Positions 757 to 7,499 of a stretch of 36,971 bases of DNA are shown here, piece by piece. Where the stretch lies: positions 1 to 36,971 of the IMG/VR virus record IMGVR_UViG_3300020147_000021; one strand, given 5' to 3'. The position numbers were made by a program, and so were the translations under genes. Below the pieces are notes generated by a model that was not told the DNA's origin, did not search any database, and saw only the letters and a program-made list of their open reading frames with translations. This DNA is from a virus. Each line of letters begins with the position of its first letter. Position 1 is the stretch's first letter.

Positions 757-1368
757 TTACTCTCCAATGTGTTTCATGATATTGTGGTACAATTCGGTTC
801 TGTGTTCAATTCCATTAGTACCACCATTTATTCGTTTCGTCAATAACTGAATATTTCCAGTATCGGCTATAGCGTTTAACTTATTTATATCCCAAAACCA
901 GATGGCAGATAATGTTGCATATTGAGGCTCTGCTACCAAATCTGGGTTATCAATGATTGATGGGTTCTTTACCCATTCTGAGAATCTTTTGTAGTTATCT
1001 TTTCCAGTAACTTGCAATATTCCTCTACCTCGGTATTTCCATCCATCACCTGAAGTTTCACTTCCATTTCCCATTCTGTTTGCATATACTCTATTTGCAA
1101 TCATTGTAGGCTTGCGTGCGTATGCAACAGCTAATTCCTGAGTTGGAAAATATTTCTTAAAGACTGACATCAAAGCGTTAGCTGAATAATTCAAGTTCTC
1201 TGATACAGCGGTAAATCCAGCTGATTCATGACCCGTTTGAGACAGGAACGCAGCAACTCTAATGTTTGTGTCTATATCATAAGTGGGCAACACTTCAAAT
1301 TCCTTCACCCATTTATCAATATTCTTATTATTTGGGAATACTTTATTCATTAATTCAAGTGTTACCAT
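757..1368 (-). CDS. Endolysin, GH19 chitinase/lysozyme-like
   Basis: A 203-residue single-domain glycoside hydrolase family 19 enzyme, expected to cut peptidoglycan glycan strands at lysis. Key features are QTGHESAGF with catalytic Glu48, SENLNYSA with the probable second acid Glu57, and the conserved block GDGWKYRGRGILQVTG. The longest frame starts 6 nt earlier (ATG TAT ATG), but AAGGAG abuts that first ATG. It sits 6 nt before the second, so the MVTLEL start at 1368 is preferred. There is no signal peptide or membrane segment, so export would need a holin, which is not seen in this window. It is a clear relative of the GH19 domain inside gp5 (14012-16513). It is transcribed leftward from a TATAAATA late promoter about 25 nt upstream, which suits a lysis gene. 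Confidence 0.9.
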   Translation of the reverse strand: MVTLELMNKVFPNNKNIDKWVKEFEVLPTYDIDTNIRVAAFLSQTGHESAGFTAVSENLNYSANALMSVFKKYFPTQELAVAYARKPTMIANRVYANRMGNGSETSGDGWKYRGRGILQVTGKDNYKRFSEWVKNPSIIDNPDLVAEPQYATLSAIWFWDINKLNAIADTGNIQLLTKRINGGTNGIEHRTELYHNIMKHIGE

Positions 1369-5780: not shown

Positions 5781-5805
5781 CCTACCGTAAAGTAAACAAA
5801 TAAAC

Positions 5806-5838
5806 AAAAGCCGGATATCAATTAAGATTCCGGCTTTT
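5806..5838. terminator. Bidirectional intrinsic terminator
   Basis: A perfect 10-bp inverted repeat, AAAAGCCGGA (5806-5815) and TCCGGCTTTT (5829-5838), with a 13-nt loop. The stem ends in A and T tracts, so it can terminate on both strands. It lies between the convergent tape-measure and gp32 genes. Confidence 0.85.
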
Positions 5839-5871
5839 GAGTTACATATACCTCAATTGGTATACTAACGA

Positions 5872-6804
5872 TTAGTTTTCATCGTTCAAAATTGTATTGA
5901 AGTAGTCAGCCAAGTTTGAATCATCATCTGATGCTGGAAGTTCAATCGATGTAGATTTTGCTTCCTTAATAGTTGCGACGGCTGGGCTTGAATTAATTCC
6001 TGCTGCTTGTTCAACTTCTTTCTCAGCTGTAGCAAGACTCTTCTTACCATTACCCATAACTTCCGCCAACTTCTTATCAAGGTCTTCTCTTGACTTGAAG
6101 TTCTTTGGGTCAATGAATTCACCAAGCCAATGTTGAGTATTAGCAACTTCAACGATGAATTCATCATCACCAATTGCACTTGGAGCATCGAATACTGATT
6201 GGTCGTAGTTTGCGTAACCGTCAACTTGTCTCATACGAAGCTTGAAGTTTGCACCTTCCCAATAGTCAAACACATCGATTGGTTCCTGGTCTGCAAAGGT
6301 TGGACGAGCCGCATCAACAATCTTGTCATGAATTTTCTTACCATACTTAAACAAGAAAACCTTACCTTCGTTTTCTGGATGCTTAGGGTCAGAAATAACA
6401 AGAATGTTAGAAATGTAAGTTAGTCTACGCTTCTGTTCTCTTGCTTGCTTACGATTTGGGTGATTGTCATCTTCAGTAGAGTTCCAAAGTTCTCTATTCA
6501 ACTCAGCAACACCGTCCATTTGGCCGATAGTTGACAGAGAATTTTCGATGTACCAACGACCTGTTGGGCCCTTGAAACCATGGTGATAGATTCTAACCCA
6601 TGGAAGTTCATCCTTCTCAGTTCTTGGAAGGAAACGAATAACTGCAGAGCCATTGCCTGCTTTATCTCGTTCTAGTTTCCAGAACCTTTTATCTTCTTCA
6701 CGGGTATTATTTGATTGGGGATTTGCTGCTTTTTCGAGTGCATCAGTAATTTTTGAGAAATCACCTGAACGCATTTTACGGAGTGCTTTGATATCAATTG
6801 ACAT
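5872..6804 (-). CDS. 32: Single-stranded DNA-binding protein gp32
   Basis: A 310-residue T4 gp32-family protein that coats ssDNA and coordinates replication, recombination and repair proteins. It has a basic N-terminus (IKALRKMRSGDF) for cooperative binding. The OB-fold core includes VIRFLPR, YHHGFKGPTGRWYIE, ISNILVISDPKHPENEGKVF and WEGANFKLRMRQVDGYANYD. The acidic C-terminal tail has SDDDSNLADYF. The T4 zinc site (one His, three Cys) is lost: the His pair YHH remains, but the positions of Cys77, Cys87 and Cys90 are occupied by other residues, and the whole protein contains no Cys. The order 33-59-32 is as in T4. The leader carries five 11-nt-spaced AATAC copies that overlap the AAGGA ribosome site (see 6805-6876), and a late promoter lies at 6880-6887. 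Confidence 0.95.
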   Translation of the reverse strand: MSIDIKALRKMRSGDFSKITDALEKAANPQSNNTREEDKRFWKLERDKAGNGSAVIRFLPRTEKDELPWVRIYHHGFKGPTGRWYIENSLSTIGQMDGVAELNRELWNSTEDDNHPNRKQAREQKRRLTYISNILVISDPKHPENEGKVFLFKYGKKIHDKIVDAARPTFADQEPIDVFDYWEGANFKLRMRQVDGYANYDQSVFDAPSAIGDDEFIVEVANTQHWLGEFIDPKNFKSREDLDKKLAEVMGNGKKSLATAEKEVEQAAGINSSPAVATIKEAKSTSIELPASDDDSNLADYFNTILNDEN

Positions 6805-6876
6805 ATCGTATTTTCCTTGTATTTTCGCTGTATTAAATTTGTATTAACATCGTATTATAGAGAATTTATCCCTATA
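6805..6876 (-). promoter_or_regulatory. gp32 mRNA leader: five AATAC repeats at 11-nt period plus 5' hairpin
   Basis: Read leftward, AATAC occurs at 6856-6852, 6845-6841, 6834-6830, 6823-6819 and 6812-6808, each exactly 11 nt apart. The array is AT-rich and looks unstructured, and it runs through AAGGA (6818-6814) to within 3 nt of the ATG. Immediately 5' is an 8-bp hairpin, 6876-6869 with 6863-6856 (one G-T pair, 5-nt loop), close to the predicted RNA 5' end. In T4 the gp32 mRNA is repressed by gp32 itself through a 5' structure plus a repetitive unstructured stretch over the ribosome site; this has the same layout. The repeats are seen; the operator role is inferred. Confidence 0.7.
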
Positions 6877-6879
6877 TAC

Positions 6880-6887
6880 TATTTATA
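6880..6887 (-). promoter_or_regulatory. T4-type late promoter TATAAATA for gp32
   Basis: Exact TATAAATA read leftward, in the gap between gp59 and gp32. The expected start near 6874 would give a leader of about 70 nt that begins at the hairpin and contains the AATAC array. gp32 would thus have late transcripts independent of the upstream 59/33 operon. Confidence 0.7.
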
Positions 6888-6899
6888 GGAGTTAAATGA

Positions 6900-7499
6900 C
6901 TATTTTGAAAATATTTCATTTATTTCTTCATACCATTCATCATATACGGGTTTAATTTTATCTGGATTAAACTTCACAAATCTTGAACTCTTTCTCAATC
7001 TTAATAATTCGTCGTTCCAAATCATTGTAAACGAAGGATTATTCCATCGACTAAACATACCATTGAAAGAGTTTAATATAACCAGGGTTTCATGACTAAT
7101 ATTTCCATTGATGTACAACAGAAATAAATCATCATAAGATTCATTAACTTTAATTGAACCTTCCAGAGCTCCACTTGAAATCAAATTCAAGTCATCTTTG
7201 AAAACTTGGGTTATAGCTTGTGATTTACTAACCCATTTAAGATAATTTTCGGAGCCTGACACTGGGTCATAGAGGAAATTCTTGCAACCATAGGAAAAAT
7301 TAGCTACGTAGTATCTAACGCAATCCCTTGGTTGTTTAAATTTTTTGGCTAACTTCTCAAATAGAAACTTATCGCTTCTCTTATTATAATAATCAACTCC
7401 AGTGTGCTTTACTCTTGGTGTTTCGAATAAATCGAAAGACTCAACGGTAAAATGTAACTTAACTGGAATGTATAACTTATATGCTTCATAACCTGTCAT
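6900..7499 (-). CDS. 59: Replicative helicase loader gp59
   Basis: A 199-residue T4 gp59-type protein, which binds fork DNA and gp32 and loads the gp41 helicase. T4 gp59 is 217 residues, so the size fits. Family features are an N-terminal GYEAYKLYIPVKLHFT (compare the T4 KSVYKLYLMIKQHM), KRSDKFLFEKLAKKF, YYVANFSYGCKNFLYDP and a C-terminal helical half with HETLVILNSF and MIWNDELLRLRK. The start overlaps the gp33 stop as ATGA, so translation is coupled. Its direct neighbours, gp33 upstream and gp32 downstream, reproduce the T4 order. Identification combines sequence pattern and synteny. Confidence 0.88.
   Translation of the reverse strand: MTGYEAYKLYIPVKLHFTVESFDLFETPRVKHTGVDYYNKRSDKFLFEKLAKKFKQPRDCVRYYVANFSYGCKNFLYDPVSGSENYLKWVSKSQAITQVFKDDLNLISSGALEGSIKVNESYDDLFLLYINGNISHETLVILNSFNGMFSRWNNPSFTMIWNDELLRLRKSSRFVKFNPDKIKPVYDEWYEEINEIFSK

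Follow-up and report, generated by a model that had tools for sequence, protein, structure and literature searches.

Evenly spaced AUAC-type repeats in the gp32 mRNA leaders of T4-like phages: a candidate autogenous operator with its own architecture

The gp32 proteins of phages T4 and RB69 are translational repressors of their own mRNA and act through a 5′ structure together with UUAAA/UAAA repeats that lie over the ribosome-binding site (PMC535899). In T4, gp32 nucleates at a 5′ pseudoknot and spreads over these repeats across the ribosome-binding site, and both parts are required (PMC535899). The occluded site of T4 gp32 is 7 nt, with tight contact to 2–3 nt (PMC10484735). How gp32, a non-specific single-stranded-DNA-binding protein (SSB), recognizes its own mRNA has been described as unclear (PMC535899). 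The RB69 operator differs from that of T4 in detail. RB49 is reported to lack both T4 elements, and for this reason a review calls for work on gp32 autocontrol across diverse T4-related phages (PMC3014915). Translational repression of a specific mRNA by an SSB is also known for M13 gp5, which acts on gene 2 mRNA; its target, however, is another gene, and a periodic array is not described in that source (PMC535899). The DNA polymerase gp43 of T4 and RB69 is likewise an autogenously controlled replication protein with a hairpin and ribosome-binding-site overlap in its operator (PMC3014915), but this hairpin has a specific loop, lies about 40 nt before the start, and has no described repeat array.

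The window analyzed here, a 36,971-nt stretch of viral DNA, encodes a gp32 whose reading frame matches the Pfam single-stranded-DNA-binding core domain PF08804 (E = 5.3e-45; score 154 bits, cut-off 26.8) and phrog_224 (E = 4e-104). Its leader carries five copies of AATAC on the coding (minus) strand, every step being 11 nt. A first-pass annotation had described exactly this period and an array running through the Shine-Dalgarno (SD) sequence to the ATG; all five start positions were confirmed, and the SD-like AAGGA falls between the last two copies (Table 1). The pattern ATACN{4,8}ATACN{4,8}ATAC has a single site in the 37-kb window, namely this array. When the leader was shuffled 20,000 times with its dinucleotides preserved, five evenly spaced copies never arose and five copies at all arose once; among 84,480 placements of five random non-overlapping copies, 12 are evenly spaced. 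Downstream of a 5′ hairpin, the array is predicted to be essentially unstructured (-1.2 kcal/mol, z = +0.3). A known RNA family was considered for the leader and rejected: Rfam at gathering score gave no match in the window, and tRNA was the sole match in the gp32 leaders of 20 relatives. Elsewhere in the window, an inverted repeat with a T-rich tail (AAAAGCCGGAATCTTAATTGATATCCGGCTTTTGTTT) lies 3′ of gp32 at 5795–5840 on the minus strand; it looks terminator-like by eye and is absent from the list of an automatic scan. At 1380–1406, between divergent genes, the late-promoter element TATAAATA occurs three times in close succession, with both strands represented.

Table 1. Features of the gp32 leader and adjoining genes in the window
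Feature	Positions	Strand	Basis
gp32 single-stranded-DNA-binding protein, 310 aa, ATG at 6804	5872..6804	-	PF08804, phrog_224
AATAC repeat 5, within SD-to-ATG spacer	6808..6812	-	sequence
Shine-Dalgarno-like AAGGA, between repeats 4 and 5	6814..6818	-	sequence; same placement in relatives' arrays
AATAC repeat 4	6819..6823	-	sequence
AATAC repeat 3	6830..6834	-	sequence
AATAC repeat 2	6841..6845	-	sequence
AATAC repeat 1	6852..6856	-	sequence
5′ hairpin, 8-bp stem UAUAGGGA/UCUCUAUA (one G-U pair), loop UAAAU	6856..6876	-	folding prediction
TATAAATA late-promoter -10 element	6880..6887	-	sequence; ends 3 nt upstream of hairpin
gp59 helicase loader, gp32's upstream neighbour as in T4-like phages	6900..7499	-	PF08993; phrog_269 E=7e-32

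The locus shares with the T4 gene 32 operator (found also in T2 and RB69) the same gene, gp59 upstream, a 5′ structured element and unstructured repeats over the ribosome-binding site. As in T4, the candidate element belongs to the leader of the gp32 mRNA and extends over the ribosome-binding site. T4-type RB14 has TATAAATA upstream, as the window does, and the NATAAATA/TATAAATA late-promoter element is known from S-PM2, T4 and KVP40 (PMC2984593). The T4 pseudoknot is H-type and about 28 nt long, whereas the window has a simple hairpin with no pseudoknot partner. The 3′ part of the T4 operator consists of UUAAA/UAAA repeats, for which a fixed spacing is not stated; the corresponding part of the window leader is also predicted to be unstructured, but its word is AAUAC, and the leaders studied here carry AUAC or AAUCC every 9–11 nt. 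Because the pseudoknot and the UUAAA word are both missing, this leader is set apart from the T4 operator class. The same logic as in T4, which the first-pass annotation had proposed and which combines a 5′ structure, an unstructured repeated leader and the ribosome-binding site, is favored by comparative evidence; a T4-type pseudoknot partner was looked for and not found.

The comparison rests on gp32 genes from IMG/VR and named phages, which gave 207 non-redundant leaders; this sample was collected by sequence patterns, is rich in marine phages and takes its IMG/VR part from among the matches listed, and a few extra named phages were read, or placed on the tree, outside this set. The density of ATAC per 70 nt is 2.19 in the 207 gp32 leaders, compared with 0.32 in 444 leaders of neighboring genes and 0.30 for the opposite strand, and at least three copies within 70 nt are present in 88 of the 207 but in only 3 of the 444. 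Loss of the repeats in relatives, named in advance by the first-pass annotation as what would speak against it, is not the pattern seen, the repeats being retained in a large share of the T4-like phages. Among the matches listed, the window's closest relative has a gp32 that is 65% identical in the best segment and a leader with six ATAC copies, the final three steps being 12, 11 and 11 nt. P-SSM4 carries four copies at a 9-nt step, and other named array carriers are Pelagibacter phages Mosig and HTVC008M, P-RSM6, Vibrio phage Va3 and Caulobacter phage Cr30. In many T4-like phages, most of them marine, a short word, usually AUAC, recurs every 9–11 bases up to the gp32 start, and a small hairpin often precedes it. 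An earlier report of the array in cyanophage gp32 leaders was not found in the literature searched, which covers subscription journals thinly.

A blind scan of IMG/VR with the 14-mer AATACGGAGAATAC, using no protein similarity, returned at least 120 stretches; of the 119 informative ones among the matches listed, 93 are immediately followed by gp32. Some of the non-gp32 matches fall within coding regions, such as a gene for a gp41-like helicase (identity read from its translation). AUAC-type leaders occasionally precede genes other than gp32, which counts against a gp32 operator. One such leader (ATACtATAC...ATACggagaATACaaATG) precedes a gene whose product appears UvsX/RecA-like by eye (L485:4094-5131, plus strand), and from it the operator type may extend to further recombination genes. 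In P-RSM6 (L427), ATACaaaacaaATACgagaaaATACaATG stands immediately before the start of CPXG_00076, a peptidase-like gene (phrog_459) near gp46 (leader 1017–1041, minus strand).

Neighboring ATAC copies lie 9, 10 or 11 nt apart 165 times in the 207 leaders, against about 61 expected, while spacings of 4–7 and 12–14 nt are depleted. A motif-free count of identical 4-mers at each lag gives the same picture in gp32 leaders, with 392 against 100 at lag 9, 393 against 100 at lag 10 and 229 against 95 at lag 11 (self-similarity z = 22.7, 21.4 and 11.7, respectively) and harmonics at 18–20; the only peaks in control leaders fall at multiples of three, the periodicity of codons. Copies are also anchored to the start codon, clustering near -5/-6, -15 to -17, -24 to -27 and -36/-37 relative to the ATG, and every one of the 37 relatives' arrays that extend to the ATG has its SD between the final two copies. 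Uniform arrays occur at 9 nt (up to six copies, in L194) and 11 nt (five, in the window), and also at 10 and 8 nt. The strict 11-nt period of the first-pass annotation holds for the window and some other phages; 9- and 10-nt arrays are equally common.

These spacings bear on the possibility, raised alongside the RNA reading in the first-pass annotation, that a protein binds one site per turn on one face of double-stranded DNA and controls transcription or replication in the manner of iterons. A period of 11 is near 10.5 bp, and many IMG/VR loci other than gp32 have four ATAC copies at period 11, often within iteron-like arrays. Such phage arrays share the word and, in some contigs, the 11-bp step, but most are not upstream of gp32, and they have no tie to SD and ATG. 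Many unrelated viral contigs (L043–L162) carry ATAC at an 11-nt step in long arrays, of GATACCCTATC or CCTATACACA units for instance, that resemble replication iterons. Because these unrelated repeats share the pattern, four ATAC copies at period 11 are a poor marker of gp32, which accompanies 5 of 115 informative matches listed; in a scan at period 9 the figure is 26 of 113 informative matches listed (IMG/VR). In the gp32 leaders, helical phasing near 10.5 bp is not found: uniform arrays at 9 nt (six copies in L194, four in P-SSM4) are common and drift off any helix face, so binding to one DNA face is disfavored. The copies are moreover strand-specific and anchored to SD and ATG, and where a late TAAATA lies beyond -45 the array is mostly downstream of it. 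We consider DNA iterons very improbable.

Recent tandem duplication was also rejected as the origin of the array, because between successive copies the ATAC word alone is kept: agreement is 0.36–0.43 in the spacers and 0.51 at the flanking base, against 0.30 by chance. This conservation of words beside diverged spacers likewise argues against a non-functional origin in compositional bias and slippage. The leaders are 43% A, as such an origin would have it, yet neither dinucleotide shuffles nor the 444–447 control leaders reproduce the array and the hairpin covaries (below), so that this explanation is scarcely credible.

The word itself changes between lineages. Leaders with at most one ATAC are still periodic at lags 9 and 10 (z = 12.7 and 20.6), and many leaders low in ATAC carry AAUCC or AAUCU instead, mostly at a spacing of 9–10 nt, as in the L330 leader (AATCC-aacga-AATCC-aactt-AATCC-gaggt-AATCT-aa-ATG). 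At least three AATC[CT] copies are present in 22 of 207 gp32 leaders and in 0 of 447 controls. On the gp32 tree, the AAUCY class consists largely of S-SM2-like cyanophages adjoining AUAC relatives, with several switches, and leaders tend to hold copies of one kind (96 of 118 are pure against 44 expected, a comparison uncorrected for kinship between leaders). Neither word, as classified, is present in 54 of 214 sampled leaders, about a quarter, which counts against the operator reading. In L330, L280, L283, L322 and their S-SM2-like kin, AAUCC or AAUCU stands for AUAC in most or all copies; S-SM2-like leaders of this kind often follow a sigma-70-like promoter, with the predicted start close to the array. 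Other repeated words, seen by eye in Straboviridae gp32 leaders, are GTAAA in Proteus phage PM2 and CTGTTAA in Dhakavirus.

Two explanations keep the array at the RNA level without repression by gp32. As a translation enhancer or standby site, A/U-rich unstructured repeats would recruit ribosomes (e.g. via S1) for high gp32 output. The leader is A-rich and predicted unstructured, the array terminates at SD and ATG, and gp32 is required in quantity; an enhancer, however, predicts neither the fixed 9–11-nt spacing nor the change of all copies from AAUAC to AAUCC, and neighboring-gene leaders lack the array. We regard it as unlikely. Another RNA-binding protein, either phage RegA or a host repeat-binding protein, could instead read the array and control gp32 translation. 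RegA occurs in cyanomyoviruses (PMC2984593), and the sites it binds are A/U-rich and close to start codons (PMC3014915), but it targets many mRNAs at short sites, while the array belongs for the most part to gp32 (93 of 119 among the matches listed), and the T4 precedent favors gp32 itself. We think such a reader decidedly unlikely.

The 8-bp hairpin described in the first-pass annotation stands as a prediction (-7.1 kcal/mol, z = -3.6): positions 6876–6869 pair with 6863–6856 around a loop at 6868–6864, and its final base is the first A of the first AATAC copy. The stem lies only 3 nt past TATAAATA, so that, with the start-site spacing of T4 late promoters, a late transcript would probably lack the outermost 2–3 pairs. 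Placement of a hairpin after the late promoter is common to the window and its relatives. TAAATA is present at -95 to -45 in 64 of 207 leaders and missing at the expected distance in 143; a hairpin scoring at least 11 follows within the next 40 nt in 70% of the 64, against 19% of shuffles. The relatives' stems are wholly different (TGCTAC/GTAGCA, AGCC/GGCT, TCCC/GGGA, TGTCC/GGACA, GCCAT/ATGGC), and a 9-nt loop near GAUNAYANA recurs, frequently with AUACA or AUAUA. Among 17 hairpin variants each of six stem pairs changes on both sides somewhere, and covariation scores 0.944, where shuffles give 0.19 and slid pairings no more than 0.19; these hairpins were chosen for four inner pairs, so the independent evidence is the outer pairs (formed in 13 and 10 of the 17), loop similarity and position. 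The window hairpin is grouped with them by position and not by loop, because its UAAAU loop is unlike their 9-nt loop. A T4-type pseudoknot was rejected: downstream complementarity to the 17 loops is 3.9 against 4.0 in shuffles, none exceeding its shuffles, and the window's best partner is not significant (p about 0.2), while the same search recovers the 7-bp partner in the positive control RB14. In many relatives the hairpin is absent or weak, and some have sigma-70-like promoters, which counts against the operator reading.

Taken from sequence comparison, the leader is probably an autogenous translational operator that acts as RNA and is bound by gp32, and it probably works like that of T4 with a different architecture and a lineage-specific repeated word. 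Late transcription would begin just downstream of TATAAATA, a start inferred from T4, so that the mRNA would open with, or within, the small hairpin, followed by the unstructured AAUAC array at its 11-nt step through the SD to the AUG. Once in excess of available single-stranded DNA, gp32 would preferentially bind its own leader, probably starting from the hairpin and array, and would form a cooperative filament that covers SD and AUG and stops gp32 translation. On this reading, about one protomer would grip the RNA tightly at each word, and successive protomers would sit 9–11 nt apart. We infer gp32 as the ligand, repression by its binding and the register of protomers with the words. One protomer per repeat is plausible; as the T4 site is 7 nt (PMC10484735) and not 9–11, a 4–5-nt word at this step would require a somewhat longer gp32 site or gaps.

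More tentatively, and with more doubt than confidence, gp32 operators across T4-like phages might be RNA rulers that present a lineage-specific word (AUAC, AAUCC, perhaps GUAAA or CUGUUAA) once per protomer, every 9–11 nt. As parts of this same tentative claim, a nominally sequence-independent SSB might recognize its own mRNA through register and avidity, and the hairpin's 9-nt loop might hold an extra, nucleating copy of the word, e.g. GAUUAUACA, in place of the T4 pseudoknot. The leaders provide a large natural set of candidate operators whose design, in word, spacing, number and hairpin, can be counted. Register, specificity and co-evolution thereby become directly testable, abundant ocean phages included.
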